From a virus: a stretch of 50,066 bases of DNA. A model generated the notes under the pieces. It was given only the letters and a program-made list of their open reading frames with translations, did no database searches and had not been told where the DNA came from. Positions 12,786 to 48,996 of this stretch are shown piece after piece. The stretch lies in the IMG/VR virus record IMGVR_UViG_3300031857_000301, positions 1 to 50,066 of that record; one strand, given 5' to 3'. Each line of letters begins with the position of its first letter. The first letter of the stretch is position 1. The position numbers were made by a program, and so were the translations under genes.

Positions 12786-14909
12786 ATGAAAGTAATTAAT
12801 GTAAATCCGGGCATACTTCCCATTCCACCAAATGGATGGGGCGCAATCGAAAAAATCATATGGGATTATCATCTCCAACTGCAAAAAATTGGAGTACACA
12901 GTGAGATAAAATACCTTAACGAAATCGAATATGACGATAGCACAATTGTACACGTACATGTGGCAAATTTGGCTAACATGTTTCACGAGAAAGGTGTACC
13001 TTATATTTTTACTATCCATGACCATCATGCATATGTTTATGGAAAAGATTCTCCAGTATTCAAAGAAAACTTAAAAGCCATAGAAAACAGTGTATTTTCA
13101 TTATCACCATGCAAATATTTGCTTCCATATTTTGGTAGCAAAAAACTAAGATATTTTAGTCATGCTGTAAATACCGATGTTTTTACATTCAATAATCGTC
13201 ATAGACACAATCCACTGAAATTGCTTTGTGTAGCTAATAATGGATATGCATATAACCAAAGTGTGGATAGAAAGGGATTTGGAATTGCAATACAAGCAGC
13301 AAAAGAATTAGGTCTTCCAATCACAATTGCTGGGCCAAAAAATAATGACAACTTTTTCAAGACCCTTGACCCAGAACTAAACAACTATTCCAAGCTAACA
13401 AAACTGTATGATTTGGATGAAAAATGGTTGGTAAATTTGTACAACGAAAACGATCTGTTCCTTCATTTCTCTGAATTGGAAGCTGGACATCCGAATCTAA
13501 CATTATTGGAAGCAATGGCGTGTGGTCTTCCGGTTGTTGGAACTTTTGAGGAAAAAGAGTATGATGGCATGGTAGTTTCCGAAAGAAAATTTGAAAATGC
13601 CATAGAATCAATTAAATATGCTGATCAAAATTATGATTTATTGAGAAATCATGCATTAAGCAATGCAAATAAAAATTCATACGCTAACAGAGTACATGGT
13701 TTGGTCAAACTATACAGTGAATATAGAGAGCGTATTTTCAGCAAGCAACTTGAAGTTGCATACAGTAACACCAAGATAACATATACTGAAGCGAAAAATA
13801 GAATCAAAGTAACATTTGATGACGGTGCAAAAGTTGATATATCTGGTGCAGTTCAGAAAAAATACAGAGTAAAATTCATAGATGGTCTTACCAACATGGT
13901 TGTATATCAAACTGATATATACAACAACATGTGGGCCACTACAAATACCAAGTACTACAACAAGTGGTTGGTAGAAGTGTTTGATATCACCGACGGCATT
14001 GAAGTGTTGGAATATTCCGAGGCAATGGATCTAAAGAATCGCACAGTAAAAGTTGTATTCGACAGTGAAAGTTTGGGAGATATTCTTGCGTGGATCGGCG
14101 CCGTCGATGAATTTCAAAATAAACATCAATGCAAGATGTATTGTGTGATATTCAACAAGTACTTGCGTGCTTTACTTGAAAAAAATTATTCAAACATAAA
14201 ATTTTTGGCTGTTGATGTTTACGCCGAAGAATATTATGCAAAGTATAAGATAGGATGTTTTGATTCAAATGGATATCATCCATATATTCCAAAGGATCCG
14301 CGCACATTGAATTTGTGTTCAATTGCAAATTGTATTTTAGGTTTAACAGATGTTGAACATAAACCAAAGCTGAATATTGACAGAAAGAAATACAGTAAAA
14401 ATAAGAAATATGTATGTATTGCTGTGCAAAGTACATGTCAGGCAAAATACTGGAACAATAAGAATGGTTGGAACAATGTGGTCAAATATCTTAAATCTCA
14501 AGGATATGAAGTATGGTGTATAGACAGATTCAACAGCTTTGGCACCAAAGATAATATGAATTATATACCAGACGGTTGCATTGATAAGACCGGAGACTTT
14601 CCGTTGGAAGAACGCATGGCTCAGTTGGCTGGTGCAAAATTTTTCATTGGACTAAGTTCTGGTCTTTCGTGGGTGGCGTGGGCGGTAGGTGTGCCAGTTG
14701 TAATGATTAGTGGATTTACAAAGGCATATAATGAGTTCTATACGCCGCATCGTATCATAAATGAAAATGTATGCAATGGCTGTTGGAACGACGTTAATGT
14801 GAAGTTTGACCGCTCTGATTGGTTATGGTGTCCATATAACAAGAACTTTGAATGTTCTACTCAAATATCTGTGGATAGAGTGCTGTCTGAAGTTAAAAAG
14901 TTGATATAA
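12786..14909 (+). CDS. GT4 glycosyltransferase fused to autotransporter-type protein O-heptosyltransferase domain
   Basis: A 707-residue protein. The ATG at 12786 is chosen because an in-frame ATG at 12753 would overlap the previous gene. Residues 1 to about 320 are GT4-like: a PPNGWGAIEKI loop (15-25) and an SELEAGHPNLTLLEAMACG donor site (229-247). Residues about 355-412 are a beta-rich linker. Residues about 420-707 closely follow the autotransporter O-heptosyltransferase family (TibC, AAH): SLGDILAW (429-436), CIAVQST (544-550), KYWNNKNGW (554-562), FIGLSSGLSWVAWAVG (620-635), VVMISGFT (638-645), and four cysteines C663, C666, C682 and C690 arranged like the TibC iron finger. TibC-type enzymes attach heptose to Ser on autotransporter repeats. 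The phage version suggests Ser/Thr O-glycosylation of a protein. It is the last gene of the glycan island. Confidence 0.9.
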   Translation: MKVINVNPGILPIPPNGWGAIEKIIWDYHLQLQKIGVHSEIKYLNEIEYDDSTIVHVHVANLANMFHEKGVPYIFTIHDHHAYVYGKDSPVFKENLKAIENSVFSLSPCKYLLPYFGSKKLRYFSHAVNTDVFTFNNRHRHNPLKLLCVANNGYAYNQSVDRKGFGIAIQAAKELGLPITIAGPKNNDNFFKTLDPELNNYSKLTKLYDLDEKWLVNLYNENDLFLHFSELEAGHPNLTLLEAMACGLPVVGTFEEKEYDGMVVSERKFENAIESIKYADQNYDLLRNHALSNANKNSYANRVHGLVKLYSEYRERIFSKQLEVAYSNTKITYTEAKNRIKVTFDDGAKVDISGAVQKKYRVKFIDGLTNMVVYQTDIYNNMWATTNTKYYNKWLVEVFDITDGIEVLEYSEAMDLKNRTVKVVFDSESLGDILAWIGAVDEFQNKHQCKMYCVIFNKYLRALLEKNYSNIKFLAVDVYAEEYYAKYKIGCFDSNGYHPYIPKDPRTLNLCSIANCILGLTDVEHKPKLNIDRKKYSKNKKYVCIAVQSTCQAKYWNNKNGWNNVVKYLKSQGYEVWCIDRFNSFGTKDNMNYIPDGCIDKTGDFPLEERMAQLAGAKFFIGLSSGLSWVAWAVGVPVVMISGFTKAYNEFYTPHRIINENVCNGCWNDVNVKFDRSDWLWCPYNKNFECSTQISVDRVLSEVKKLI

Positions 14910-14918
14910 AAACCCATT

Positions 14919-14932
14919 GATATATATTTATA
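14919..14932 (+). promoter_or_regulatory. Putative late-promoter-like AT element
   Basis: GATATATATTTATA ends 4 nt before the ATG at 14937. Identical over 14 bases to the element at 26667. Confidence 0.4.
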
Positions 14933-14936
14933 TCAT

Positions 14937-17900
14937 ATGGACATTTCTATAACCAATCTCAAAAAGTATGTTTTTGAGCCTAAGACAGAGTCTTTGCGAC
15001 TAAAGCGTGCCAATGAGATATTGGGGCAGGGAATGATTGCTACGGAAAAAGTGGATGGCACAAAACTTACTCTTGTTCGTACTAATCAGACTGATCCGAA
15101 TGATTATACCAAGAATTGGGTTGTAGCATATAAGGGAACTGTATTATATCCAAAAGAGTTTGCATACCTTACTCCACAGGGAAAAAAAGATATATCTCAA
15201 TCATCTGTTGGTATAGGCCAATATGCTTTGATTTTTGATCATTTGGAAAAAATCAATAACAAGATTGCTAGTATTCCAAAAAGCACGGAGTTCAGTGTTG
15301 AATTTGCGCAGAACAAGGATACTCTCACAAGAACATATGTTCAGAAAGGTGGAATGTTCTTAAGAAGTTATGGTGAGGTGTCATATCGTATTGTTGGTGG
15401 TGGGTTGAATACTGTTCCGAAACAAGAGATCACAGACTATACCAACGTAAAAAGAATGGCAGATCTTTTGGAAATTAGCGCGTTTCCTATTTTCTTTCAG
15501 GGCAAAATAACAAGAGAAAATGTAGCAAAATATCCATCAATTGCGCCAAAAATGATGAGCGCCGATTGGAATAATCCATTGGATGTGTTAACCAAGTTTT
15601 CTGATGCTATGCTGTCTATACCATCTACTCTTGGTGGTACAACGGAGGGCGTGGTACTGAAACTTGATAATGGAAGCTTTTACAAAATTGTTCAAGCTGA
15701 CCAATATAGCTCTGATGTAAGAGGTGCTAAGAAAGATTTGTATAAACTTGAGCCAGAAGCGGCCACATCATATTTCCAACAGATCAGAGCACTTATTCAA
15801 AAAGTATTTGATACCATTGGCACGGATGGAAAGACAGAAGAAGATATCATATCCGACACAAACTTTTACATTGCCAAAAATGAAAAAAGCTTGGCTAAAT
15901 TTTTTGATGCATTGCAGAAGATTGCTGGAAACAAAAAGAACCTCGTACAGATCAAGGATGATATTCACGACACTGTTCGTCTTATGACTTCAAAGCAGGA
16001 ACTCCTTGGGTCAAAAACAAAATCAATCGCGCTTCTTCCTATTGCTGGCAAACCACTACACATTGGACATTGGAAACTGATTGAAAAGGCGGCAAATGAA
16101 AATGATAATGTTGTGGTCTATACATCAACAACCGACCGTGTGCGTAAAGGAGAATTTCCGATATATGGCGATGATTTTGTGCAGATATGGAGTGATATGC
16201 TCATTCCATCATTGCCAAAGAATGTAAAAGTGAAATTTGTTGATTCTCCATTAAGATCTGTCATGCATGAACTTGGATGGTTTGAACAAAGACTTACTCA
16301 AGACGCTGCAAATGTACCAGTCATTAATCTATATTCAGACAAAGAGGATATTGAAACAAATTTCAAGCAAGAAGATCTGAACAAGTATCCAGAATTATTG
16401 AAAGCTGGAAAGATCAATAAAGTTGGCGTAGAAAGAACAAGTACGGTCAATGTCAGCGGCACAAAGATGAGAGAATTCTTGCAGAACAATGACAAGGACT
16501 CCTTCATGAAATATTTACCTCCTATATCAACCAAGGATAAAGAACAAATATGGAATATTCTTTCATCTCGCAGACCAAGTGATCTTGCTGAAATAAATCC
16601 ATACGCTGTATTGGCTGAAAAACTGATTAATGAAGTTGCAAATGAAATATTGAATGAAGGCGGATGGAGAAATCCAGAGACACAAGAATGGGAAGTTACA
16701 CCAAAGATGGTGGCAAAGATCGTGGAAGACACTAACAAATTTTTGAATGATTTCAATGCATGGTCTGGATTATCCAAGTTGTCAACCAAAGGTCCGACAG
16801 GAAGTGGAAAATATTACAAGAACGACTTGAATGATCCAAGTATAACTTATGGAGATATTGATATTCAACTTGTATTGCCCGTTGAAAGCAATGAAAGAAA
16901 AAATCAATTAGAAGCCAATAAAATTTTTGGAGACAAGATCCGTGAGTTCATAAAGACCAAAAAACCAAGCTATATTCACGACGCAACAAATGATCCAGAT
17001 TTTGGAATTGGATACTTGATATTCAATGTGGATGGTAAAAAAGTTCAAGTTGATCTTGTACTATCATATACTGTTTCAGCTGATTGGACGAGTGTAAGAA
17101 CAACGCCAGAAAAAGGATTGAAGGGATTTGTCACAGGAATGATGTTAAGTGCATTGAGTGACACATTGAATGTTGTTCTTGGGTCAAGCACCAATCCGTA
17201 TATCAACACTGTTGATGGAAAGGTTGTATCATCCTCAATCAAGAAAGATGCTGTGCAAAAATTCCTAAAGCCAAATGAAGTATTTGCCGAGATTGTACGA
17301 TTTTATGGTGAAATGGCGGACATTGAAAACCCAGACTTATCTTTATTGGTTGGTTATATGGGCCTTGATGCCAACGACCCTTCATTAAAAAAGAAATGCC
17401 AAACCGTGGTTGCTTTGGCAAATACACTTGAAAAGAATGGAATATTTGACGCTGGAGTCATAACCTCCAAGGATGGTATAACAATCAAAAGCAGAAAACA
17501 ATTTGTTGATCGCGTAAGAACCACATACATCGATATGATGCAGCGAGCAAAAACAGCCAAAAAACTTGAAAAAGCACAAACACCAAGCGCCATGAGAACA
17601 ATAGAAAAAATAAAAAATCATGCTGATCTGGGAATACAGATGGCAAACGAACTTATTAAAGAACATTATACACTTCTGATGGAATCTGGTAAATCCATAG
17701 CCGCCGTGGACCCAAAAACGCCAAAGATGGTAAATGGTCAGCCAGCACAGGCAACAACCAAATTAAGAATTGTTGATCCGCAGGGCAAGGATGTGCATTC
17801 AGCAGTGTCAAAGGACATCAAGGAACTTGTGTATGTATTGAATGCCAAGGTCGGTTTTTGGAAAAAGAATAATCCGTACATTGAAAATGGATTTATATTC

Positions 17901-18839
17901 AATGGTAGTTCACAATTTCTAATGGATCCAAACAAGTTTGGTGTGTTGAGCAAATACAAAGATTCTTTTGGTGACATAGATGTTATCATTCCAAAATCAA
18001 AATTGGATGCTTTGACATCATTTTTGGACAGCATTGATGACAATAAAGCTGATTGGAATCCGACAACTCAAAACAGATTGTCTAGTAAGTTTTATTATGT
18101 TGGACGCACGAAGAGTTATGCATCCATTCCAGATCAACTTGTAACACTTTGGTATTATGATCCAATGAAGCAAGTTGTTCAAGTGGACTTTGAAGGTGAT
18201 GAAATGTTTCTTGATCCGCAAGGATATGAAAAGCCAAGCGAGTGGACAAAATTCAGCAAAGATTCTCCGTGGGAAGATTTGACCGTAGGTATCAAGGGAT
18301 TGGCTGGGGCATTAATGCTTCGCTCATTAGCAAGAGCAACAACAGTATTACCAAATGCAGTTGTGTTGACGCCGGGCGCAGTCAAGAAAGTTCAGTCTGG
18401 TGCAGTCAAGGAACTTACCGATAAGGAAGTTACTAAAGCAGCACAGCACAGTATTCCATCTGCATACACATTAAATACTGGCGGTGGTGGTACTGGTATA
18501 CGTAAGGCATACGAATTAGTAAAGACAATGCCATATAATGGGAAGATGGTTGATGCATATAGATTTGTGGAAGCCAAAGAAACAAAACCAGAAGACAGAA
18601 TCACGGATGTTGGCAGAATATTTGAAATATTGTTCAAAAAGAAAGCATCGCCTGAAGAAAGAGCTGAATTTCGCAGCTATCAGGGACTGTTAAGACTAAT
18701 GAAGAAATATTTGGACAAGAAAACCATCGACATTGCTATGAATAGATTCACGGAAGTTTTGGCTGGCGAAGGTTTAAATCCAAAGGAATATGCTTCTGTG
18801 CAAAAGGCTACGAAAGATATTCTTGGATTGTCTATATAA
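14937..18839 (+). CDS. Multidomain nucleotidyltransferase: ligase-like, HIGH-type and two pol-beta-like modules
   Basis: A 1300-residue protein with four separate nucleotidyl-transfer signatures. (1) Residues 1 to about 280 resemble an RNA/DNA ligase adenylation domain: EKVDGTK (37-43, nucleotidyl lysine K38), FSVEFAQ (119-125), TEGVVLKL (236-243) and YKIV (249-252). (2) About 360-530 is an NMNAT/cytidylyltransferase fold: PLHIGHW (373-379, the HxGH signature) and VSGTKMRE (506-513). (3) About 595-760 is a pol-beta-superfamily nucleotidyltransferase: TGSG (621-624), YGDIDIQ (638-644) and VQVDLVL (703-709). (4) About 960-1130 is a second such unit: NGSS (989-992), FGDIDVIIP (1011-1019) and VQVDFEG (1081-1087). 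This suggests a nucleic-acid repair or end-modifying machine, perhaps for tRNA or RNA, but no substrate can be named. A TATATATTTATA element lies 4 nt before the ATG. Confidence 0.82.
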   Translation: MDISITNLKKYVFEPKTESLRLKRANEILGQGMIATEKVDGTKLTLVRTNQTDPNDYTKNWVVAYKGTVLYPKEFAYLTPQGKKDISQSSVGIGQYALIFDHLEKINNKIASIPKSTEFSVEFAQNKDTLTRTYVQKGGMFLRSYGEVSYRIVGGGLNTVPKQEITDYTNVKRMADLLEISAFPIFFQGKITRENVAKYPSIAPKMMSADWNNPLDVLTKFSDAMLSIPSTLGGTTEGVVLKLDNGSFYKIVQADQYSSDVRGAKKDLYKLEPEAATSYFQQIRALIQKVFDTIGTDGKTEEDIISDTNFYIAKNEKSLAKFFDALQKIAGNKKNLVQIKDDIHDTVRLMTSKQELLGSKTKSIALLPIAGKPLHIGHWKLIEKAANENDNVVVYTSTTDRVRKGEFPIYGDDFVQIWSDMLIPSLPKNVKVKFVDSPLRSVMHELGWFEQRLTQDAANVPVINLYSDKEDIETNFKQEDLNKYPELLKAGKINKVGVERTSTVNVSGTKMREFLQNNDKDSFMKYLPPISTKDKEQIWNILSSRRPSDLAEINPYAVLAEKLINEVANEILNEGGWRNPETQEWEVTPKMVAKIVEDTNKFLNDFNAWSGLSKLSTKGPTGSGKYYKNDLNDPSITYGDIDIQLVLPVESNERKNQLEANKIFGDKIREFIKTKKPSYIHDATNDPDFGIGYLIFNVDGKKVQVDLVLSYTVSADWTSVRTTPEKGLKGFVTGMMLSALSDTLNVVLGSSTNPYINTVDGKVVSSSIKKDAVQKFLKPNEVFAEIVRFYGEMADIENPDLSLLVGYMGLDANDPSLKKKCQTVVALANTLEKNGIFDAGVITSKDGITIKSRKQFVDRVRTTYIDMMQRAKTAKKLEKAQTPSAMRTIEKIKNHADLGIQMANELIKEHYTLLMESGKSIAAVDPKTPKMVNGQPAQATTKLRIVDPQGKDVHSAVSKDIKELVYVLNAKVGFWKKNNPYIENGFIFNGSSQFLMDPNKFGVLSKYKDSFGDIDVIIPKSKLDALTSFLDSIDDNKADWNPTTQNRLSSKFYYVGRTKSYASIPDQLVTLWYYDPMKQVVQVDFEGDEMFLDPQGYEKPSEWTKFSKDSPWEDLTVGIKGLAGALMLRSLARATTVLPNAVVLTPGAVKKVQSGAVKELTDKEVTKAAQHSIPSAYTLNTGGGGTGIRKAYELVKTMPYNGKMVDAYRFVEAKETKPEDRITDVGRIFEILFKKKASPEERAEFRSYQGLLRLMKKYLDKKTIDIAMNRFTEVLAGEGLNPKEYASVQKATKDILGLSI

Positions 18840-18899
18840 TAAAATACGCGGCAACCTATTATGAACTTTGCCGCATATATATCTTAAAGGTTTTATAAT

Positions 18900-21517: not shown

Positions 21518-21537
21518 TTATCTTATAAAAATATAAC

Positions 21538-21552
21538 GAGTATATATTTATA
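21538..21552 (+). promoter_or_regulatory. Putative late-promoter-like AT element
   Basis: GAGTATATATTTATA lies 29 nt before the portal start. Confidence 0.4.
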
Positions 21553-30854: not shown

Positions 30855-30886
30855 AAAGACCCGCAGAAATGCGGGTCTTTTTTATT
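30855..30886 (+). terminator. Intrinsic terminator after the major capsid gene
   Basis: A perfect 10-bp stem, AAAGACCCGC with GCGGGTCTTT, around a 6-base AGAAAT loop, continuing into a run of T. It lies 28 nt after the capsid stop codon and is the clearest rho-independent terminator in the window. Confidence 0.92.
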
Positions 30887-30920
30887 GTATATATCATATG
30901 TATTTTTCGTACAAAATATT

Positions 30921-33709: not shown

Positions 33710-34113
33710 AACCTTTCTCGTTACTAGATCAAGTATTGTCCGAGAGTGAAAGAAAAAGAATGAAATTTGTCGGACTAAAAAGAACTCTCAAACCGAGAGG
33801 CAAGTTCACATCATTGGAAAGAAAATATTATCTCATGCTGAAGAACTTGGATGTCTATTATGTTCCGCAATATCCGATGGGAGGAAGATATTACGACGCA
33901 TATCTGCCAGATCAAAACATACTATTTGAATTTGATGGTTCATTTTGGCATCCAAAGAATGAAGATGATGCAAAATATGATTTTCAGAAAAAAGCATTTA
34001 AAGTTGATGAACTGAAAAACAAGATGGCTGAAAAGAAAGGAATGAAGATCATTCGCATTCGTGAAGATGAACCAATCACATTGGAACAGATGAAAAAATT
34101 GATCTTCTCATAA
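33706..34113 (+). CDS. PD-(D/E)XK endonuclease (Vsr/DUF559-like)
   Basis: A 135-residue nuclease domain of the restriction-endonuclease fold. Features: a conserved Ser-Leu-Glu helix (36-38), catalytic Asp in YDAYLP (D64), the ExD-type strand FEFDGSFWH (74-82) with E75 and D77, and a C-terminal KIIRIREDE strand (114-122). The FDGxxWH pattern is typical of Vsr-like and phage-borne homing-type nucleases. It overlaps the gp13-like gene by the ATGA junction and ends 3 nt before the propeller gene, so it is fully embedded in the neck operon. It could act as a free-standing homing endonuclease, a host-DNA nuclease or a recombination accessory; the sequence does not decide. Confidence 0.8.
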   Translation: MKPFSLLDQVLSESERKRMKFVGLKRTLKPRGKFTSLERKYYLMLKNLDVYYVPQYPMGGRYYDAYLPDQNILFEFDGSFWHPKNEDDAKYDFQKKAFKVDELKNKMAEKKGMKIIRIREDEPITLEQMKKLIFS

Positions 34114-38763: not shown

Positions 38764-41700
38764 ATGAGCAACGAACTAATTGTCAGAAATGGCTTGATTG
38801 TATCTGGTACATCCAGCTTTTCTGGCAGCGTATTCATAAATGGAAATACTGTTGTAACAGGTTCTATCATCAGTAATCAAGTTGCATACTTAACAGCAAG
38901 CCAAGCTTTGACAGCTTCACATGTTCTTGGATTGCCAGATACATCAAGTTGGGCTCTTAATGCTGTATCTGCTGCCTTTTCAGAATATGCAGTAAGTGCA
39001 TCATATGTTATTGGCGCACCTGATACAGCAAGTTGGGCATTAAATGCTGTTTCATCTTCATACGCATTATCATCTTCATATGCTGTTTCGTCATCTTATT
39101 CATTATCGGGGTCGTATGTTGATACTGCTTCATATTCAAATTATGCAGTAAGTGCGTCATATGTTATTGGTGCTCCAGATACTGCTTCATGGGCATTGAA
39201 TGCTGTTACAGCTTCTTATGTTGAATATACAAATGTAGATAAGATAACATCAACATCACAATTTGCTGGAACAGCAAGTTATGCTCAAAGAGCAAACAGC
39301 ATCAAAAGTGGAATTGACATTGATGTAACTTCAATAACAGCATCAGCAATACGTGTTGATAATCTACATGTTGTTACCATAACAAGTAGTGTAAATTTTG
39401 TTTCTGGTAGCACAGACTTTGGAACAAGTATAACTGATACACATGTTTTCACAGGCAGTCTTTTTGTTCAAGGAAACATAAATGTTGAAGATGGTTATGG
39501 TATACAAGGAACTTCGTCGTATGCTGTAACAGCAAGTTATGCTTTTAACACCAGTACATCTGGTACTAGTGGCACAAGCGGAAGTAGTGGAAGCAGTGGC
39601 AGTAGCGGAACAAGTGGTAGTAGTGGAAGTGCTGGTACAAGTGGTAGCAGTGGCACAAGTGGCACCGATGGATCAAGTGGTAGTAGTGGAACGGGAGGAA
39701 GTAGTGGTAGTAGTGGAACAAGTGGTAGTAGTGGTAGTAGTGGCAGCAGTGGATCAAGCGGATCATCTGGTACAAGTGGATCATCTGGTACAAGTGGATC
39801 AAGTGGAACAACGGGTACGAGTGGTAGTAGTGGAAGCGGTGGTACAAGTGGAACCAGCGGTTCGTCTGGAACAAGCGGAACGAGTGGAAGTAGTGGTACA
39901 AGTGGAACAGACGGATCGTCTGGATCTAGCGGCAGTAGTGGATCTTCTGGTACAAGTGGAAGTAGTGGTACAAGTGGAACTGGTGGATCGTCTGGTTCGA
40001 GTGGAAGTAGCGGTTCTTCGGGAACAAGTGGATCAAGTGGAACTTCTGGCTCAAGCGGTACTTCTGGATCAAGTGGTAGCAGCGGTAGTAGTGGTAGTAG
40101 TGGAACAAGTGGAAGCAGTGGAACAAGTGGTAGTAGTGGTAGTAGCGGCACTAGCGGCAGCAGCGGAACAACAGGAACAAGTGGTAGCAGTGGATCTTCT
40201 GGTACAACTGGAACGAGTGGAAGCAGTGGAAGTGCTGGTACCAGCGGAAGTAGTGGAACCAGTGGTACAGATGGTTCAAGTGGAAGTAGTGGCAGTGCCG
40301 GTACAAGTGGCAGTAGCGGCAGTAGTGGAACCAGCGGTTCAAGTGGTAGCAGCGGTACAAGTGCAACATCGGGATCAAGTGGTACTAGCGGAAGCAGTGG
40401 TAGTAGTGGATCTTCTGGTACAAGCGGAAGCGGAGGAACAAGCGGCAGTAGCGGAAGTAGTGGTACTACTGGAACAAGCGGTAGTAGCGGTACCAGTGGA
40501 ACAGATGGTAGCTCTGGGTCAAGTGGAAGTGCTGGAACAAGTGGTTCTAGTGGATCTAGTGGAAGTAGTGGTACGAGTGGATCAAGTGGAAGTAGTGGAA
40601 CTAGTGGCAGCAGCGGCAGCAGCGGAACAAGTGCAACTTCTGGATCTTCTGGAACAAGCGGTAGTAGTGGCAGCAGTGGAAGTAGTGGAACCAGTGGCTC
40701 GTCTGGATCGGCAGGTACAAGTGGATCTAGTGGAAGTGCTGGTACAAGTGGTAGCAGTGGCACAAGTGGTACCGATGGTTCCAGTGGTAGCAGCGGAAGC
40801 AGCGGATCGTCTGGTTCTTCTGGTACCAGTGGAAGTAGCGGAACCAGTGGGTCTTCTGGTACAAGTGGAAGTAGCGGTACCAGCGGTAGTAGTGGAACAA
40901 GCGGAAGCAGCGGTAGCAGTGGTAGTAGTGGAACCAGTGGTAGCAGTGGAAGCAGCGGCAGTAGTGGAAGCAGTGGTAGTAGTGGAACAGCAGGTTCTTC
41001 TGGTAGCAGTGGATCAAGTGGATACACACCAGAAAACATGGTTACAAGTTCTTTCCAACTTTCAAACGATGGCGGTCTTGCATTCAGCAGTGCAAACAAT
41101 GTTACATTTGGTCAAATCACCGCTTCTATTATCACTGTATCAACATTATATGTTCAAAACATAACAAGCAGTACAGAACTTGTAACTGGAAGTTTTGTTG
41201 TAAGTGGATCCTTTGATGCAATCGGTGGAGTAACAGGAAGTCTTCTTGGTACAGCAAGTTATGCTCTACAAGCTCTGACCGCTTCATATGCACTTAATGC
41301 TGAAGGATCAAATAAAACACAACTTACTGCTTCAACAATATTATTTACAGGAAGCGCGACAAATCTTTCACTAAATGTTTCATCGTCGGGTGATGTTGCC
41401 ATAACTGGCATAAATAATGGAGATATTGTTGTAATATCAGATTCAACAAGTTCAACTCCATTATTTGGAATTGAAAGTGTAAACAATCCTTTATTCAGTG
41501 TATATAATAGCGGAAATGCATATTTGAGTGGAAGCTTGTCTGCTTCATTATATGGTACAGCAAGTTGGGCAGTTACAGCAAGCTATGCTTTAAGCTACAG
41601 TGGAACATCTGGTAGTAGTGGCACAAGCGGAACATCTGGTTCAAGTGGCAGTGCTGGTACAAGTGGTAGTAGTGGAACAAGTGGAACAGACGGTAGTTCG

Positions 41701-44700
41701 GGTTCGTCTGGAACTGGTGGATCAAGTGGATCTTCAGGTAGCTCTGGTACGTCTGCAACTTCTGGAACTGGTGGATCAAGTGGAAGTTCTGGAACTAGTG
41801 GAAGTAGTGGAACAGGAGGTTCTTCTGGAAGCAGTGGAACAAGTGGAAGTAGTGGTAGCGGTGGAAGTAGTGGTTCAAGTGGAACTTCTGGTTCATCAGG
41901 AACCAGTGGAAGCAGCGGAACTTCTGGTACAGATGGTAGTAGTGGAAGTGCTGGTACCAGTGGCAGTGCAGGTACTAGTGGTACAGACGGATCAAGTGGT
42001 ACCAGTGGTAGTGCAGGTACGAGTGGAAGTAGTGGTACCAGCGGTAGCAGTGGTACAAGTGGAACTGCTGGATCAAGCGGAACGTCTGGGTCAAGTGGTT
42101 CTTCTGGTACAACTGGAACTTCTGGAAGCAGCGGAACTGCTGGTTCAAGTGGAAGTGCAGGAACATCGGGAAGTGCTGGATCTTCTGGTTCGGCTGGAAC
42201 AAGTGGTAGTAGTGCAAGTGCCGGTACCAGTGGCACAAGCGGCACAGATGGATCAAGTGGTAGCAGTGGTTCTGGTGGATCAAGCGGAAGTAGTGGCACA
42301 GCTGGTAGCAGTGGAAGTAGTGGTACAAGCGGTAGCAGTGGTTCGAGTGGAACCAGTGCAACCAGTGGAAGTAGCGGTACATCTGGTACCAGTGGAAGTA
42401 GCGGTACATCTGGTTCAAGTGGAACAAGCGGTACTGATGGTAGCAGCGGAAGTAGTGGTAGTAGTGGATCTTCGGGATCAAGTGGTACTGGTGGAACAAG
42501 TGGTAGCAGTGGTACCACAGGAAGTAGTGGTAGTAGTGGTAGCGCAGGAAGTAGTGGTAGTAGTGGTTCATCTGGATCAAGTGGTACAGGAGGAAGTTCA
42601 GGAACAAGTGGAACCAGTGGTAGCAGTGGAACGGGTGGTAGTAGCGGATCAAGTGGTACTAGCGGAACAGATGGTAGCAGTGGTAGCAGCGGCAGTGGAG
42701 GAAGTTCTGGAACAAGCGGTACAGATGGTACCAGTGGTAGCAGTGGAACTTCAGGTACTTCTGGTTCAAGTGGAAGTGCAGGAACTAGTGGCAGCAGCGG
42801 AAGTAGTGGCACTACTGGAACAAGCGGTAGTAGCGGTACCAGTGGAACAGATGGTAGTAGCGGTAGTAGTGGAACAAGTGGGTCTACTGGTACAAGTGGT
42901 AGCAGCGGATCAAGTGGTAGTAGTGGTAGTAGTGGAACAACAGGAACAAGTGGTAGTAGTGGTACAAGTGGAACATCTGGTTCGGCTGGCTCTGCCGGAT
43001 CAAGCGGTAGCAGCGGTAGTAGTGGAGCAGGAACAATTTCTGGTGGAACAAGCAACTATGTGGCAAAATTTAGCAATGCCACAACACTGACTACAAGTTC
43101 AATCTTTGATGGTGGATCTGGAGTTGGTATAAATAAATCTACAGCAAATTCCACACTTGATGTAAATGGTAATACAATAATCACTGGATCATTGACTGTT
43201 ACCCAGAACGTAACCGCTTCAAACATTGTTGTTACAAATCTTTATGTACAAAACATAACTGCTTCCACGGAAATTGTAACAGGAAGTACTCAGTTTGGAA
43301 CATTGCTTTCAAACAAGCATATGTTCACTGGAAGTGTTGAAATAACAAGTTCATTAAAGGTAAATGGTGATTTTTCAGTAAATGGAAATACAGGCAGCTT
43401 GGCTTTCTCAAGCAACGCAGATACTTTGGAAATAACTGGTTCATTATTATTAAGTGGATCAATGTTTGTTACAGGAAGTATCTCTGTAAATGGTAGTATA
43501 ACTGGTTCACTTTTTGGCACGGCTTCGTATGCATTAAACGCACTTACTGCTTCATACGCTTTAAGTTATAGTGGTACGAGCGGTAGCAGTGGAACCAGTG
43601 GGTCTTCTGGTACGTCTGGTACAAATGGAACCAGTGGATCAAGCGGAACTGGCGGAACCAGTGGAAGCAGTGGTACAGGTGGATCTTCTGGAAGTAGCGG
43701 AACGAGTGGTAGTAGTGGAAGTTCTGGTACAAGTGGTACGAGTGGTAGTAGTGGAACATCTGGAACAGATGGTAGTTCTGGATCAAGCGGTTCAAGTGGC
43801 TCCAGTGGATCATCTGGTACTTCTGGTAGCGCAGGAACATCGGGATCTGCTGGATCGGCTGGAAGTAGCGGTAGCAGTGGAAGTGCTGGTACAAGTGGTA
43901 CGAGTGGTAGTAGTGGAACATCTGGCACGGACGGAAGTAGTGGAAGTTCTGGTAGTAGTGGTACCGCTGGTACTTCTGGTAGTGCAGGTACTAGTGGAAG
44001 TAGTGGTTCGAGTGGAACATCTGGAACAGATGGAAGCAGTGGTAGTAGTGGTACTTCTGGTAGTGCCGGTACTGGTGGTTCAAGTGGAAGCAGTGGTTCA
44101 TCTGGAACGAGTGGGGAAGGCGGAAGTGCAGGAACATCTGGTACAAGCGGCAGTGCTGGTACGAGTGGAACGAGTGGTAGTGCTGGAACTGCTGGATCCA
44201 GTGGTAGTGCGGGAACATCAGGTTCTGCTGGATCAGCTGGAACAAGTGGTAGTAGTGGAAGTGCTGGTACAAGTGGTACCAGCGGTTCAAGCGGAACATC
44301 TGGAACCAGTGGAAGTAGTGGATCCAGTGGAAGCAGCGGATCTTCTGGAACGAGTGGTAGTGCTGGTACTTCTGGTAGTAGTGGAACAGCTGGAACAAGT
44401 GGATCGGCCGGTTCAAGTGGTTCTTCTGGAAGTGGAGGAAGTTCTGGATCGGCTGGAACATCTGGTACAAGCGGCAGTTCTGGTACAAGTGGTACAAATG
44501 GCTCAAGTGGTACTTCTGGTACTAGCGGATCTTCTGGAACGGGTGGAACTAGTGGTAGTAGTGGAAGTGCTGGCAGTGCAGGTAGTGCAGGATCAAGCGG
44601 CACAAGTCCAATAATAACTGGAACAAACTTCACGCTTGCATTGTTCAGCGGAAGTAATGGATTGAGTAGCAGTGTGTTAAGTCAATATGATAATGGATTA

Positions 44701-47700
44701 TATTTGACTGGATCGTTGAATGTAAGTGGATCAACTCTACAAGTTGGTAATAACACATTACTTGGTAACACATCACTTAGTGGTAGTTTAACAATTTCTG
44801 GTGCATTTGCCACAGCAACACCAAGTGTAAATATTTTCGGAGATATTTCACAGACTGGATATCTCAGATTTAACCCAGTTAATACAAATATAAATCAAAG
44901 CATTTCCGCTTCATACATTTATGTCTCTGGTAGTACAAATGATTTATATTTTGCTCAGAATGGAAGTGGATACAGTAACAATACTCGTCTTCGTTGGTTG
45001 GAAGGAGTATTATATACTGGATTGCTAAATGGTGGATTGGTATCAAGCACAGTTGGTTCTACTACTTTCAACATATCTTCTGGCAGTGGTATAATTGTAA
45101 CTTTAAATGCTAGTTTAAGCACAGATCCATTTCCAACTGTAAAATATGTAAATTGGGGAAATTACAATAATCAACCAATAACATACTCTGGCTCCGCCAA
45201 GTTGACATATGTTGGTATTGATTCGAATGGGGCAGTTGTTCAACAAGTTGAGCCTTGGGGTTCAACAAACATAGATCAATTTGACAGCCAAATATTACTT
45301 GGTATTGTGTTGCATTTGAGTGGAAGTATTTCATCGGGAGTATTTAATTCACCACAAACAGCATATGGTAATTCTCAAAAATCAGACGACTTTTTCAGAT
45401 CGTTTGGTCCATTAAAAGTAAGTGGGCATACATTGCAAACCAGTGGGTCTTCGCTTGGCCTTACAAAGGCTGGTGGTACAGCATACAGAGATGGTGCAAA
45501 TTATGTTACCAACCCAAATCACCCATCAACGGTCGTTGAAAATTCTATAACAACAAGTAAAATTTACAGATATTATGTGTCTGGATCAACGCCTATAATT
45601 GATACTGGTGTTGGTGCATCAGGTTATACCGCAATAGATCCAAATAATTACAACAATAATGGAGTACTTACTTCTGTTCCTTCAAACAATTATACTATTC
45701 AGAGAGTATTTTGGACTCCAAATTCTCCAACTAATGCATTTGTAGTTTATTATGGAACTGCAACATATTCCAATTTGTTGACCGCAGTCAATGCCAAGGA
45801 TAGTGAACCATTTTCAGAAGCTCCAGATACAGCCGCCGATGCAATCTTCTTAGGTCATATTGTTGTAAAAGAAGGAACTACAAACCTAACTGTTGCAAAT
45901 GATTGCACGATAATTCAAGGCGGACTATTTAGAAATATTGCAGGTGTTGGATCAAGTGGAACTGCTGCTCCTGTTGTAAATCTTTCTGGTTTGGGTGACG
46001 TTTTAATATCCGTACCAACAGACGGTCAACCTCTTGTATATGATTCAACAGCATTGAAGTGGAGAAACTTGTCTGCCATAACCGCTTCGTTGTATGGTAA
46101 TGCATCAACGGCAACAAGTGCTTCGTATGCTACCACAGCAAGCTATGCTTTCAGTTATAGCGGAACGTCTGGTAGCAGCGGCACAAGCGGAACTTCTGGT
46201 ACAGCAGGATCTGCTGGAACTTCTGGTACAAGCGGAAGTAGTGGCACAAGTGGAACAAATGGATCTTCTGGTACAAGTGGAACTAGTGGATCAAGCGGAA
46301 CAAGTGGAACAAGCGCATCCGCTGGAAGTAGTGGTTCAAGTGGAAGCGCAGGAACTGCTGGATCTAGTGGTAGTGCTGGAACAAGTGGCAGCAGCGGAAC
46401 GTCTGGTACTGGCGGTAGCAGTGGAACATCTGGTAGTAGTGGATCTGGCGGTAGCAGTGGTTCAGCTGGATCGTCTGGATCAAGTGGCAGTGCTGGAACA
46501 AGTGGAAGTGCAGGAACATCTGGGTCAACAGGTTCGAGTGGAAGCAGTGGAAGTGCAGGTAGTGCGGGAACATCTGGATCAAGTGGTAGTGCTGGAACTG
46601 CTGGTAGTGCTGGTTCGGCTGGTACAAGTGGAACGAGTGGATCTTCTGGAAGCAGTGGAAGTTCTGGATCAAGTGGTACAAGTGGAACTTCTGGATCAAG
46701 TGGAACTTCTGGATCAAGTGGTAGTAGTGGAACAAGTGCTTCATCTGGAAGCAGTGGCACAAGCGGAGCAACGGGTGCATCTGGGTCAAGTGGTACAAGT
46801 GGAACTTCTGGCTCCGCAGGTTCTGCTGGATCAAGTGGTAGTAGTGGAAGCAGCGGTGCTGGAACAATATCAGGCGGTACAGCAAATTATGTAACAAAGT
46901 TTAGCAATGCGACTACATTGACCACGAGTTCAATATTTGATGGTGGTTCTGGTGTTGGCGTAAACAAATCATATGCTAATTCGACGCTCGATGTAAATGG
47001 AAACACAATCATCACAGGTTCGTTGAATGTTACTCAAAATGTGACTGCGTCAAATATTTTGGTGACAAATCTTTATGTCCAAAATATTACCGCTTCAACT
47101 GAAATTGTAACGGGTAGCACGCAGTTTGGTTCATTGCTTACCAACAAACATATGTTTACAGGCAGCGTTGAAATAACAAATTCATTGAGTGTATCTGGTC
47201 AGATATATGGAACATCTTCATATGCATTGACTGCATCATACGCGATGAATGCAGCGGGTTCAAATAATTCTGTACTAACTGCTTCAGCAATACTCTTTAC
47301 AGGTAGTACAACAAATGTTTCACTTTATGTTTCTGCCTCCGGCGATGTTGTATTCACGGGAACAAACAATGGAGATATATTTGTAATATCCGACTCATCA
47401 ACCGCTGGTGATCCATTGTTCAGAGTTGATGATGGTGGAGTGACATTGTTTCAAGTTTATCAAGGTGGCAATGCATATTTGAGTGGAAGTTTAACCGCAT
47501 CACTTAATGGAACTGCAAGTTATGCTGTTACTGCAAGCTATGCGTTGAGTTATAGTGGAACAAGCGGTAGTAGTGGTACAAGCGGAACAGGTGGCAGCGC
47601 AGGATCAAGCGGCTCTTCTGGATCAAGTGGCAGTAGTGGAACTACTGGTACAAGTGGCAGCAGTGGTACAAGCGGAGCTACAGGTGCATCTGGATCAAGT

Positions 47701-48996
47701 GGAACAAGTGGTACGAGTGGAAGTAGTGGTACTTCTGGTACAGGTGGTAGTAGTGGAAGTTCTGGAAGCAGTGGCAGTAGTGGAAGTTCTGGTACAAGTG
47801 GAAGTGCAGGTACAAGCGGAAGTGCAGGAACAGGAGGATCGTCGGGTAGTAGTGGTAGTAGTGGATCTTCTGGAAGCGCGGGAACAAGCGGTAGTAGCGG
47901 TAGTGCTGGAACAAGCGGAACCAGTGGTAGTGCTGGCACAGGTGGTACAAGTGGTTCGTCTGGTAGCAGCGGTAGCAGTGGCAGTAGCGGTAGTGCTGGA
48001 ACAAGCGGAACCAGTGGCAGTTCTGGAACAACAGGATCAAGCGGATCATCTGGCACAAGTGGTACAAGTGGCTCGTCTGGTACAAGTGGAAGCTCTGGTA
48101 CAAGTGGCAGCAGTGGTACAAGCGGCGCAACTGGTGCGTCGGGTTCAAGTGGCACAAGTGGTACGGGTGGAAGCAGTGGAACCAGTGGTGCAACTGGAGC
48201 ATCAGGTTCTAGTGGAACAAGTGGTACCAGTGGATCATCTGGAACGTCTGGTTCGGCTGGATCAAGCGGCAGTAGTGGAAGCAGCGGTGCTGGAACAATT
48301 TCTGGCGGTACAACGAGTTATGTTGCCAAGTATCTAAATTCAACAACGCTGACAACTGGTTCATTATTTGATGATGGTACAAATGTAAGTGTTGGCAAAA
48401 CAACATCCGCGTCCGCCAAACTTGATGTAAATGGAAATGTACTTATCACAGGTTCACTTAATGTTACTCAGAATGTAACTGCATCAAACATTGTTGTCAC
48501 AAATCTTTATGTTCAGACGATTACTGGTTCTGTTGAATTTATAACTGGTAGTACACAATTTGGATCATTACTAACCAACAAACATCAATTTACTGGTAGT
48601 GTTGAAATGACTGGATCTGGTTTGGATGTTATGGGCAGTGTTGGTATAGGAACATACACTCCAAATGAAAAACTTGAAGTTGTTGGAAATATCAGACTTA
48701 CTGCCGGTGCATACATTGACTATATATCAGAATTAAGATATGTTGGCTCGGCATGGTTAACATACAATACTAGTACTGGTAAGATAACGATAAAGAATGC
48801 ATCGGGAAATGGTGTGGCAATAGATGGTGGAAATGTTACCGTCGGAAAACAATCGGCAGCAAATGCTTTATTTGATATAGCCGGCAATACTATTATATCA
48901 GGTTCACTCAATATAACCTCTGGTGTAACAGGATCATTGCTTGGAACATCAAGTTATACACTTACGGCGAGCTATATAGATGGAGGAACGTTCTAA
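38764..48996 (+). CDS. Giant modular fibre protein with five Ser/Thr-rich Gly-X-Y repeat blocks
   Basis: A 3410-residue fibre. After an N-terminal beta region and a TASYAL-type repeat (about 50-180) come five Gly-X-Y blocks (nt 39559-41022, 41599-43026, 43570-44607, 46159-46857, 47554-48288), about 1,788 residues or just over half the protein. X and Y are mostly Ser or Thr, with some Ala, Asp and Gly and almost no Pro. Blocks are separated by beta-rich spacers; three spacers begin with the same AGTISGGT motif, and blocks 2-5 are led by a TASYALSYSGTSG-like junction. A distinct 517-residue unit (nt 44608-46158) interrupts the pattern. No intramolecular chaperone or peptidase S74 domain is seen at the end. 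It is probably a trimeric host-recognition fibre. Confidence 0.85.
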   Translation: MSNELIVRNGLIVSGTSSFSGSVFINGNTVVTGSIISNQVAYLTASQALTASHVLGLPDTSSWALNAVSAAFSEYAVSASYVIGAPDTASWALNAVSSSYALSSSYAVSSSYSLSGSYVDTASYSNYAVSASYVIGAPDTASWALNAVTASYVEYTNVDKITSTSQFAGTASYAQRANSIKSGIDIDVTSITASAIRVDNLHVVTITSSVNFVSGSTDFGTSITDTHVFTGSLFVQGNINVEDGYGIQGTSSYAVTASYAFNTSTSGTSGTSGSSGSSGSSGTSGSSGSAGTSGSSGTSGTDGSSGSSGTGGSSGSSGTSGSSGSSGSSGSSGSSGTSGSSGTSGSSGTTGTSGSSGSGGTSGTSGSSGTSGTSGSSGTSGTDGSSGSSGSSGSSGTSGSSGTSGTGGSSGSSGSSGSSGTSGSSGTSGSSGTSGSSGSSGSSGSSGTSGSSGTSGSSGSSGTSGSSGTTGTSGSSGSSGTTGTSGSSGSAGTSGSSGTSGTDGSSGSSGSAGTSGSSGSSGTSGSSGSSGTSATSGSSGTSGSSGSSGSSGTSGSGGTSGSSGSSGTTGTSGSSGTSGTDGSSGSSGSAGTSGSSGSSGSSGTSGSSGSSGTSGSSGSSGTSATSGSSGTSGSSGSSGSSGTSGSSGSAGTSGSSGSAGTSGSSGTSGTDGSSGSSGSSGSSGSSGTSGSSGTSGSSGTSGSSGTSGSSGTSGSSGSSGSSGTSGSSGSSGSSGSSGSSGTAGSSGSSGSSGYTPENMVTSSFQLSNDGGLAFSSANNVTFGQITASIITVSTLYVQNITSSTELVTGSFVVSGSFDAIGGVTGSLLGTASYALQALTASYALNAEGSNKTQLTASTILFTGSATNLSLNVSSSGDVAITGINNGDIVVISDSTSSTPLFGIESVNNPLFSVYNSGNAYLSGSLSASLYGTASWAVTASYALSYSGTSGSSGTSGTSGSSGSAGTSGSSGTSGTDGSSGSSGTGGSSGSSGSSGTSATSGTGGSSGSSGTSGSSGTGGSSGSSGTSGSSGSGGSSGSSGTSGSSGTSGSSGTSGTDGSSGSAGTSGSAGTSGTDGSSGTSGSAGTSGSSGTSGSSGTSGTAGSSGTSGSSGSSGTTGTSGSSGTAGSSGSAGTSGSAGSSGSAGTSGSSASAGTSGTSGTDGSSGSSGSGGSSGSSGTAGSSGSSGTSGSSGSSGTSATSGSSGTSGTSGSSGTSGSSGTSGTDGSSGSSGSSGSSGSSGTGGTSGSSGTTGSSGSSGSAGSSGSSGSSGSSGTGGSSGTSGTSGSSGTGGSSGSSGTSGTDGSSGSSGSGGSSGTSGTDGTSGSSGTSGTSGSSGSAGTSGSSGSSGTTGTSGSSGTSGTDGSSGSSGTSGSTGTSGSSGSSGSSGSSGTTGTSGSSGTSGTSGSAGSAGSSGSSGSSGAGTISGGTSNYVAKFSNATTLTTSSIFDGGSGVGINKSTANSTLDVNGNTIITGSLTVTQNVTASNIVVTNLYVQNITASTEIVTGSTQFGTLLSNKHMFTGSVEITSSLKVNGDFSVNGNTGSLAFSSNADTLEITGSLLLSGSMFVTGSISVNGSITGSLFGTASYALNALTASYALSYSGTSGSSGTSGSSGTSGTNGTSGSSGTGGTSGSSGTGGSSGSSGTSGSSGSSGTSGTSGSSGTSGTDGSSGSSGSSGSSGSSGTSGSAGTSGSAGSAGSSGSSGSAGTSGTSGSSGTSGTDGSSGSSGSSGTAGTSGSAGTSGSSGSSGTSGTDGSSGSSGTSGSAGTGGSSGSSGSSGTSGEGGSAGTSGTSGSAGTSGTSGSAGTAGSSGSAGTSGSAGSAGTSGSSGSAGTSGTSGSSGTSGTSGSSGSSGSSGSSGTSGSAGTSGSSGTAGTSGSAGSSGSSGSGGSSGSAGTSGTSGSSGTSGTNGSSGTSGTSGSSGTGGTSGSSGSAGSAGSAGSSGTSPIITGTNFTLALFSGSNGLSSSVLSQYDNGLYLTGSLNVSGSTLQVGNNTLLGNTSLSGSLTISGAFATATPSVNIFGDISQTGYLRFNPVNTNINQSISASYIYVSGSTNDLYFAQNGSGYSNNTRLRWLEGVLYTGLLNGGLVSSTVGSTTFNISSGSGIIVTLNASLSTDPFPTVKYVNWGNYNNQPITYSGSAKLTYVGIDSNGAVVQQVEPWGSTNIDQFDSQILLGIVLHLSGSISSGVFNSPQTAYGNSQKSDDFFRSFGPLKVSGHTLQTSGSSLGLTKAGGTAYRDGANYVTNPNHPSTVVENSITTSKIYRYYVSGSTPIIDTGVGASGYTAIDPNNYNNNGVLTSVPSNNYTIQRVFWTPNSPTNAFVVYYGTATYSNLLTAVNAKDSEPFSEAPDTAADAIFLGHIVVKEGTTNLTVANDCTIIQGGLFRNIAGVGSSGTAAPVVNLSGLGDVLISVPTDGQPLVYDSTALKWRNLSAITASLYGNASTATSASYATTASYAFSYSGTSGSSGTSGTSGTAGSAGTSGTSGSSGTSGTNGSSGTSGTSGSSGTSGTSASAGSSGSSGSAGTAGSSGSAGTSGSSGTSGTGGSSGTSGSSGSGGSSGSAGSSGSSGSAGTSGSAGTSGSTGSSGSSGSAGSAGTSGSSGSAGTAGSAGSAGTSGTSGSSGSSGSSGSSGTSGTSGSSGTSGSSGSSGTSASSGSSGTSGATGASGSSGTSGTSGSAGSAGSSGSSGSSGAGTISGGTANYVTKFSNATTLTTSSIFDGGSGVGVNKSYANSTLDVNGNTIITGSLNVTQNVTASNILVTNLYVQNITASTEIVTGSTQFGSLLTNKHMFTGSVEITNSLSVSGQIYGTSSYALTASYAMNAAGSNNSVLTASAILFTGSTTNVSLYVSASGDVVFTGTNNGDIFVISDSSTAGDPLFRVDDGGVTLFQVYQGGNAYLSGSLTASLNGTASYAVTASYALSYSGTSGSSGTSGTGGSAGSSGSSGSSGSSGTTGTSGSSGTSGATGASGSSGTSGTSGSSGTSGTGGSSGSSGSSGSSGSSGTSGSAGTSGSAGTGGSSGSSGSSGSSGSAGTSGSSGSAGTSGTSGSAGTGGTSGSSGSSGSSGSSGSAGTSGTSGSSGTTGSSGSSGTSGTSGSSGTSGSSGTSGSSGTSGATGASGSSGTSGTGGSSGTSGATGASGSSGTSGTSGSSGTSGSAGSSGSSGSSGAGTISGGTTSYVAKYLNSTTLTTGSLFDDGTNVSVGKTTSASAKLDVNGNVLITGSLNVTQNVTASNIVVTNLYVQTITGSVEFITGSTQFGSLLTNKHQFTGSVEMTGSGLDVMGSVGIGTYTPNEKLEVVGNIRLTAGAYIDYISELRYVGSAWLTYNTSTGKITIKNASGNGVAIDGGNVTVGKQSAANALFDIAGNTIISGSLNITSGVTGSLLGTSSYTLTASYIDGGTF
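38890..39300 (+). repeat. ASYA/ASWALNA tandem motif region in the giant fibre
   Basis: Repeated units such as DTASWALNAV and YAVSASYVIGAP recur several times near the N-terminus. The spacing suggests a beta-helical or triple-stranded stalk. The same SASY/TASY units reappear before every Gly-X-Y block. Confidence 0.75.
39559..41022 (+). repeat. Gly-X-Y block 1 (about 488 residues)
   Basis: Glycine at every third residue with Ser or Thr at most X and Y positions. Codons for Ser (AGT, AGC, TCT, TCA, TCG) and Gly (GGT, GGA, GGC, GGG) are mixed, so the DNA is degenerate although the protein is very regular. Confidence 0.95.
41599..43026 (+). repeat. Gly-X-Y block 2 (about 476 residues)
   Basis: Same triplet pattern as block 1, with more GTA, GSA and GGS triplets. 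It is entered through a TASYALSYSGTSG-like junction and left through GAGTISGGT. Confidence 0.95.
43570..44607 (+). repeat. Gly-X-Y block 3 (about 346 residues)
   Basis: Same triplet pattern, Ala-richer (GSA is frequent). Ends at TSPIITG, leading into the unique central domain rather than an AGTISGGT spacer. Confidence 0.95.
46159..46857 (+). repeat. Gly-X-Y block 4 (about 233 residues)
   Basis: Same triplet pattern, entered through TASYAFSYSGTSG and followed by AGTISGGT. Confidence 0.95.
47554..48288 (+). repeat. Gly-X-Y block 5 (about 245 residues)
   Basis: Same triplet pattern, including several SGATGAS units that also dominate the block in the next fibre gene. Followed by AGTISGGT. Confidence 0.95.

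Follow-up and report, generated by a model that had tools for sequence, protein, structure and literature searches.

IMGVR_UViG_3300031857_000301 is a virus record of 50,066 bases from a large aquatic T4-like tailed phage; the whole of it was analysed and is termed the window. Six open reading frames at positions 6313–14909 form a glycan island, and the last of these encodes a fusion of a GT4-type glycosyltransferase (GT) with a TibC/AAH-type protein (Pfam and NCBIfam matches). Two genes at the 3′ end of the window encode fibres with long, serine-rich Gly-X-Y repeats. The interpretation proposed here, to which a probability of about 0.7 is given, is that the island is a phage-encoded system for serine O-glycosylation of the phage's own collagen-like virion fibres. 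The evidence consists of gene content, residue conservation, a predicted fold, co-occurrence of enzyme and repeat, and their adjacency. The island genes, the fibre genes and the gene at 4161 are all on the plus strand.

The GT4-TibC Fusion Enzyme

The candidate fibre O-glycosyltransferase is a 707 amino acid (aa) protein encoded at 12786–14909; the reading frame is already open from a TTG at position 12753. The family TIGR04414 covers aa positions 332–706 (E-value = 5.8e-113, 377.6 bits, cut-off 200), which bears out the "TIGR04414-like" domain named in an earlier note on this DNA. The protein also has GT9 Pfam matches, and GT4-type Pfam matches at aa positions 160–286. A PDB sequence search found TibC alone (4rap/4rb4, E-value = 1.5e-78). 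The TibC/AAH-type domain, a beta-barrel followed by a GT-B catalytic domain, is encoded at 13779–14906.

Alignment to TibC places the catalytic Asp at residue 432 and the donor contacts at Thr550, Lys554, Arg610 and Trp629. All five TibC residues concerned (Asp110, Thr226, Lys230, Arg286 and Trp305) are identical in the window enzyme. Conservation was examined in 71 TibC sequences, which include close relatives and fall into 57 clusters at 90% identity and 12 at 50%. The equivalents of Asp110, Lys230 and Trp305 are present in 71/71 sequences, that of Thr226 in 68/71 (Ser in the other three), and that of Arg286 in 43/71, the window among them. Arg286 of TibC contacts adenine (PMC4358343). The iron-finger cysteines at residues 663, 666, 682 and 690 (positions 14772–14855) align with TibC Cys339, 342, 358 and 370, and each is kept in 70/71 sequences. 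The position of TibC Pro300, a residue that limits TibC to the D,D epimer (PMC4358343), is Ser in the window enzyme, as it is in AAH.

The AlphaFold model of the 12786 protein has a pLDDT of 86.6 and a pTM of 0.55. Foldseek superimposes this predicted model on TibC with a target TM of 0.87; 21 TibC chains occupy ranks 1–21, with values of 0.85–0.88. Seven predicted strands at residues 339–413 stand before the catalytic domain and correspond to the N-terminal beta-barrel.

The fusion is found elsewhere. Twenty GT4-TibC fusions were aligned. BLAST aligns 18 of them (window included) over their full length and the other two from residue 116 onwards; identity to the window protein is 27%–94%. One uncultured-phage protein is already labelled "Glycosyltransferase Aah/TibC" in a structure library, and therefore the presence of a TibC-type enzyme in phages is not itself new. 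By its sequence the 12786 enzyme is a member of the TibC/AAH family; the TibC dodecamer is not claimed for it.

BAHT genes are often followed by the gene of their autotransporter partner, and TibC modifies Ser, not Thr, of a TibA peptide (both PMC4358343). General family scans of the window proteins recognised no autotransporter substrate beside the enzyme; several relatives have a Gly-X-Y gene nearby instead.

Contigs G152, G153, G155, G110 and G035 have, next to the first TibC match (about 5 kb away in G035), a second, short TibC-like open reading frame of about 285–319 aa that has no beta-barrel part. It is possibly a partner subunit.

The Gly-X-Y Fibres

The proposed acceptor is a giant fibre of 3410 aa encoded at 38764–48996 (termed fibre 1). 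Its NCBIfam matches are to collagen-like adhesins. Fibre 1 has tandem repeats and contains 578 strict Gly-X-Y triplets, arranged in five blocks parted by other stretches: residues 267–752 (positions 39562–41019, with two short breaks), 947–1420 (41602–43023, with short breaks), 1604–1945 (43573–44598), 2467–2697 (46162–46854, with short breaks) and 2932–3174 (47557–48285). The longest run is 342 residues. A second Gly-X-Y fibre begins at 49039 and continues to the window edge at 50066, where its open reading frame is still open at the 3′ end; 342 aa with 66 strict triplets are seen.

In the 578 strict triplets the X position is Ser in 336, Thr in 233, Ala in 8 and Glu in one, i.e. Ser/Thr in 569. 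The Y position is Ser in 450, Ala in 67, Gly in 26, Asp in 16, Thr in 16 and Asn in 3. The earlier note had described X and Y as mainly Ser or Thr. This is accurate for X, which is nearly always one or the other, and for the predominance of Ser at Y, but Thr is rare at Y (16/578). Two other statements of that note were correct: the near absence of proline (29 Pro in the 3,410 residues of fibre 1, and none in the counted triplets, from which the strict pattern itself bars Pro), and the estimate of about 2,000 residues of Gly-X-Y in the two fibre genes. If any residue is accepted at X and Y (looser rule), fibre 1 has 1,770 repeat residues, just 36 more than the 1,734 of the strict rule, and the cut-off second fibre has 201, or about 1,970 in all. 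Residue-shuffled versions of fibre 1 (200 shuffles, looser rule) averaged 92 repeat residues and reached 186 at most. The observed repeat of 1,770 is therefore far beyond what composition would give. Fibre 1 thus has the long Gly-X-Y repeat of collagen-like proteins and lacks the proline or hydroxyproline that is usual at their X and Y positions.

A similar composition is seen in other loci. In 26 TibC-positive loci and 16 TibC-negative contigs, Ser makes up 52%–100% of Y and X is mainly Ser/Thr; seven TibC-negative contigs of 43, with short or odd tracts, and locus L129 were excluded from this comparison. Selection on the repeat was considered by comparing the window with contig G003, its near-twin, and was set aside: 13 synonymous and 2 nonsynonymous codon differences, with 33 gap columns, are too few for a claim of purifying selection.

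Co-occurrence of Enzyme and Repeat in Viruses

The earlier note had named co-occurrence of enzyme and repeat across related phages as the observation on which its proposal could fail. Co-occurrence was found from both directions. A set picked by the repeat comprised 43 contigs, all those of at least 30 kb among 80 listed of 119 stretches, with a duplicate counted once; L145, L148 and L188 were kept in it, though translation shows no true Ser/Thr Gly-X-Y in them. A random set comprised 30 contigs, all those of at least 30 kb among 80 listed of 120. TIGR04414 is present in 20/43 repeat-picked contigs (19 above cut-off) vs 0/30 random contigs (Fisher, p = 2.4e-6). For contigs of at least 100 kb the numbers are 8/11 vs 0/5. 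The repeat pattern itself occurs in one of the 30 random contigs, with 3 matches.

Enzyme and repeat are also close to each other. In 12 of the 20 contigs no more than 10 kb separates the TibC gene from the fetched repeat locus; random placement would give 5.2 (p = 0.0004).

When records were picked by the enzyme instead (27 viral relatives), the repeat pattern was present in 12/28 records, the window counted. All seven records of at least 60 kb have it, six with 50 or more matches and one with 2. A translation rule was also applied, by which a Gly-X-Y open reading frame has at least 10 triplets with Ser/Thr in at least half of X and Y (frames of at least 120 aa, overlapping ones counted). Such a frame is found in 6/27 enzyme-picked loci, taken with up to 10 kb on each side, vs 1/120 random loci. 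In a first set of terminase relatives, 42 records of more than 10 kb tested of 80, with window twins excluded, the repeat is present in 10/27 TibC-positive vs 0/15 TibC-negative records (p = 0.006).

The association of enzyme and fibre is real and is broader than the earlier note guessed.

An Isolate, a Giant Phage and Bacterial Loci

Microcystis phage Mel-JY01 (PP395634, 190,001 bases) is an isolate (host Microcystis elabens) whose terminase is 53.5% identical to that of the window. Two annotated genes separate its TibC gene from a Gly-X-Y open reading frame that lies upstream. This frame (locus L039) extends from the start of the record, positions 2–3052 on the plus strand, but is annotated only over 2519–3052 (plus strand); the remainder is covered by two hypothetical proteins annotated on the other strand. 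No paper naming Mel-JY01 was found among open-licence papers. A 735-kb phage genome, LR756501, encodes the whole GT4-TibC fusion with 39% identity to the window, and one GT gene separates it from a 695-aa Gly-X-Y open reading frame.

A genome collection (84,980 species by its own description) was searched with the fusion alignment and yielded 10 loci. By the translation rule, 9/10 have a Gly-X-Y open reading frame vs 1/120 random viral loci; the loci differ in length (166 kb in the 10 vs 1,022 kb in the 120), and the rates per 100 kb are 5.4 vs 0.1. Phage DNA within metagenome-assembled genomes (MAGs) may account for some of the 10, i.e. L469 and L470, and L475, which has a terminase-like open reading frame. 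Four look chromosomal.

Three of the four chromosomal-looking loci have a Gly-X-Y gene shortly before the first possible start of a stand-alone TibC open reading frame: Methylobacter luteus (4.5-Mb scaffold; 287 aa, 40 bp), Methylobacter sp. BlB1 (293 aa, 40 bp) and a Methylococcaceae MAG (323 aa, 12 bp). In the fourth, from a gammaproteobacterial MAG, a Gly-X-Y open reading frame is directly downstream of TibC. The Gly-X-Y genes of the first three have a signal-peptide-like start by eye, and the M. luteus repeat is Collagen by Pfam. The strongest hint of Gly-X-Y as the acceptor comes from these short loci.

A wider proposal is made more tentatively, at a little under even odds: Ser/Thr Gly-X-Y collagen-like proteins may be a second, perhaps larger, substrate class of TibC/AAH enzymes, in phages and in free-living bacteria. 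Ser O-glycosylation would there provide the stabilisation that animal collagen owes to hydroxyproline, and many large aquatic phages, up to 735 kb, would have sugar-coated fibres by way of the GT4-TibC fusion.

Proposed Mechanism

That the fibres are the acceptor is proposed with fair confidence; the sugar chain, the trimeric state and the role of the glycan are likewise put forward by inference. The TibC-type domain of the 12786 protein would take a sugar from an ADP-activated donor (ADP-heptose or a different host ADP-sugar) and attach it to serine residues of the Gly-X-Y repeat, chiefly those at Y. The reaction would occur in the cytoplasm of the host, while the fibres are being assembled or earlier. 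The fused GT4 domain, the GT2 protein and the GT4-FkbM protein of the island would then lengthen the glycan chain, and the FkbM and CmcI-like methyltransferases would O-methylate it.

The fibres are probably trimers. A relative of the window (locus L459, on the TibC-positive contig G035) has a 3,096-aa fibre with 452 Gly-X-Y triplets, 11 Pfam Collagen stretches and a C-terminal Peptidase_S74 domain. Peptidase_S74 is a chaperone of trimeric fibres. A dense glycan would substitute for the missing proline/hydroxyproline in keeping the collagen-like stalk together and would render it hydrophilic and protease-resistant.

Points Against the Proposal, and Other Acceptors

A number of observations weigh against fibre glycosylation by the island, or against the comparisons on which it draws. 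Habitat and phage type were not matched in choosing the random contigs, and random viral loci, not bacterial ones, served as the control for the bacterial loci. For the same 20 contigs a second adjacency statistic, the mean log distance, gave p = 0.14. The thumb-tip residues Phe265 and Val266 of TibC are Asp and Asn in the window enzyme, and these columns are variable across the 71 sequences. The two hydrophobic residues are required for the TibC dodecamer (PMC4358343); a dodecamer ring is therefore unsupported for the window enzyme. The composition of X and Y was tried as a fingerprint of the enzyme and rejected, as the Ser share at Y is alike with and without TibC (by eye; 26 vs 16 loci).

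Enzyme and repeat also occur apart. TibC-positive contigs without the repeat are G048 (63 kb), G050 (74 kb), G054 (91 kb), G155 (91 kb), G161 (76 kb) and G168 (27 kb), plus shorter ones; G161 has a 2,557-aa Ser-rich fibre without Gly-X-Y. Conversely, 23/43 repeat-positive contigs have no TibC match, G086 (148 kb) among them. A second set of terminase relatives (15 new records of more than 23 kb) reversed the result of the first, with the repeat in 1/7 TibC-positive vs 4/8 TibC-negative records, and the pooled sets show 11/34 vs 4/23 (p = 0.17). The four TibC-negative, repeat-positive relatives are all on contigs that end no more than 2.5 kb upstream of the terminase gene, i.e. short of the point at which relatives carry the TibC gene (about 6.8 kb upstream in L420). 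Requiring 8 kb upstream gives 11/29 vs 0/7 (p = 0.058). The claim that Ser/Thr Gly-X-Y fibres go with the TibC-type enzyme is thus supported by co-occurrence and adjacency, but not significantly so within terminase relatives, and repeat-free TibC contigs exist. From these two points it follows that this enzyme family probably has other acceptors besides Gly-X-Y.

The same observations favour a different acceptor in the window, i.e. another virion protein such as the product of the gene at 4161, a capsid decoration or a Ser-rich coiled-coil fibre, with Gly-X-Y merely frequent in the same large phages. The giant Ser-rich fibre of the TibC-positive G161 and the position of the 4161 gene directly upstream of the island agree with this idea. 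It is nevertheless judged quite improbable, given the bacterial TibC genes that adjoin a Gly-X-Y open reading frame and the distribution and structure of the 4161 homologues.

The gene at 4161–6260 encodes a 699-aa protein with 20 homologue loci, window twins included. In L459 its homologue is the first ~690 residues of the 3,096-aa Gly-X-Y fibre, and in L454 the homologue bears a Gly-X-Y tail of 13 triplets. In L068, L460, L461 and L462, all fragments of 10–36 kb without a TibC match, the homologue is followed by a 212-aa gene and then the terminase gene, and the island is absent. The fusion in L459 makes it likely, from sequence comparison, that the 4161 protein is a component of the same fibre system. 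The earlier note had mentioned this protein as a possible substrate; its involvement thereby gains support, but not as a beta-helix acceptor, for which there was no family match, a chance-level PDB match (E-value = 0.9) and a poor model (pLDDT 54.8). In L453 (12113 onward) and L452 (12248 onward) a Ser-rich repetitive fibre of 2,400–2,560 aa replaces the glycan island after the 4161 gene.

The donor sugar of the proposed fibre glycosylation is a further difficulty. Two families of the ADP-heptose pathway were searched in 32 TibC-positive records, and neither TIGR02199 (0/32, 6 weak matches) nor TIGR00441 (0/32, one weak match) was found above cut-off. The near-twin G003 and Mel-JY01 have no match to either family. 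The host would have to supply the donor. Cyanobacterial lipopolysaccharide is often without heptose, and ADP-glucose is abundant in cyanobacteria. If the host is a cyanobacterium, it is possible that an ADP-sugar other than ADP-heptose is the donor.

Contig G095, which is TibC-positive and repeat-rich, encodes a GmhA-like sugar isomerase at 64359–64814 (TIGR00441, 180 bits vs a cut-off of 209). In the window, positions 14937–18839 encode a 1300-aa protein whose centre resembles a nucleotidyltransferase and whose start weakly resembles an RNA ligase. This centre was considered as an ADP-heptose synthase and rejected: its best named matches are weak and PanC/NadR-like, and there is no PDB match up to an E-value of 0.1. 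In L454, L455 and L457 the homologue of this protein sits between the 4161 homologue and the island.

Other Genes of the Island

Pfam and TIGR04414 matches show that the earlier note was right to describe a six-gene glycan island ending in an autotransporter O-heptosyltransferase-like enzyme. The first gene (6313–8241) encodes a 642-aa fusion of GT4 and FkbM domains (PF00534, E-value = 1.5e-16; PF05050, 1.3e-17; TIGR01444, 87 bits). It is followed at 8245–8892 by an FkbM-type methyltransferase, a possible source of a sugar cap (PF05050, 4.9e-10; TIGR01444, 33.3 bits, under the cut-off of 37.7), and at 8841–10205 by a methyltransferase of the Methyltransf_24/CmcI type that is rhamnosyl O-methyltransferase-like (PF13578, 3.9e-14; PF04989, 1.1e-6). 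The 265-aa protein encoded at 10209–11006 has no Pfam, NCBIfam or PHROG match and is GT-A-like by eye only; homologues in L454, L455 and L457 are 72%–73% identical. The fifth gene (11009–12781) encodes a 590-aa GT2 glycosyltransferase, possibly for chain extension (PF00535, 3.4e-25).

The GT2 gene also matches the PHROG "GtrB-like O-antigen conversion" (4.8e-12). This agrees with a view in which the island remodels the host surface (lipopolysaccharide, S-layer or slime) to exclude competing phages and the fibre neighbourhood is a host-interaction cluster only; glycosyltransferases in the host-recognition cluster of pelagimyophages have been interpreted in this way (PMC7029224). However, the core enzyme is from a protein O-glycosyltransferase family, and a simple 19-residue hydropathy rule shows no membrane anchor in the island proteins: the maximum is 1.13 in the other five and 1.68 in the 12786 protein, where it is inside the TibC catalytic core. 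In addition, six neighbouring open reading frames in M. luteus, partly viewed, include no glycan gene by eye, no family search having been made there. Remodelling of the host surface is thus considered unlikely.

Relation to Known Systems

The window enzyme resembles TibC/AAH, whose partners are TibA/AIDA-I, in family model, predicted fold, catalytic and donor-site residues and iron finger; many relatives of the phage enzyme also have the enzyme gene near a repetitive Ser-rich protein. It differs in being fused to GT4, in being phage-borne and in not keeping the dodecamer thumb residues. The partner of TibC/AAH is a beta-helical autotransporter, whereas the neighbour here is a collagen-like fibre, and no donor-pathway gene is above cut-off in the two families searched.

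In Clostridium difficile the gene sgtA lies beside that of the collagen-like protein BclA3, and its product modifies BclA3. A glycosyltransferase gene next to a collagen-like gene whose repeat Thr (or Ser) it modifies is the feature that this system, together with BclA of Bacillus, shares with the proposal (PMC7157674). SgtA differs in being a GT-A enzyme that uses UDP-GlcNAc, and its target is a Gly-Pro-Thr repeat of the spore exosporium, not of a virion. The EPclA collagen-like proteins of E. coli prophages are likewise phage-encoded, have Gly-X-Y and form trimers, but are proline-rich and charged; the recombinant protein is unglycosylated, and the excerpt mentions no linked glycosyltransferase (PMC3368898). 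Glycans are also found on virion proteins of mycobacteriophages, where they are at the C-termini of capsid and tail-tube subunits (Freeman 2023, via PMC12619734).

Among the matches listed from open-licence papers, none concerned phage TibC enzymes or their link to Gly-X-Y fibres. The enzyme family is known, the architecture is new and the substrate class is apparently new. The proposal extends a family known from pathogen adhesins to collagen-like proteins, assigns a likely role to those phage glycosyltransferase clusters commonly interpreted as host-surface modifiers, and names a testable acceptor for a phage enzyme present in many contigs. If it is true, large aquatic phages would commonly have glycosylated virions, and proline-poor collagen-like fibres that sugars hold together would count as a new natural material.

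Genome Setting

Profile searches give the gene order of the window (5′ to 3′) as primase, a joined SbcD/SbcC-like protein, large terminase, portal, prohead protease and T4-type major head protein. One end of viral contig G003 (184,824 bases) is nearly identical to the window, and Mel-JY01 shares with it the order primase, SbcCD-like, structural protein, TibC gene, terminase, portal and capsid.

The glycan island is flanked by DNA-metabolism genes (primase, SbcCD-like) on one side and packaging genes on the other. This location would suit an island that makes glycosylated or hypermodified DNA against host nucleases, and virus-encoded DNA-modifying glycosyltransferases are known (Pyle 2024, cited in PMC12619734). 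Such a role is very improbable here, since the TibC family targets protein Ser (PMC4358343), bacterial TibC adjoins collagen-like genes, and family scans, made for the window proteins only, recognised no base-modifying enzyme.

A DNA/RNA non-specific endonuclease is encoded at 30885–31712, directly after the major capsid gene (PF01223, E-value = 7.8e-50). An HNH homing-endonuclease-like open reading frame is found at 33706–34113 within the structural gene cluster, and the structural-region protein at 34117–36093 has 123-nt tandem repeats together with DUF6242/EPTP matches.

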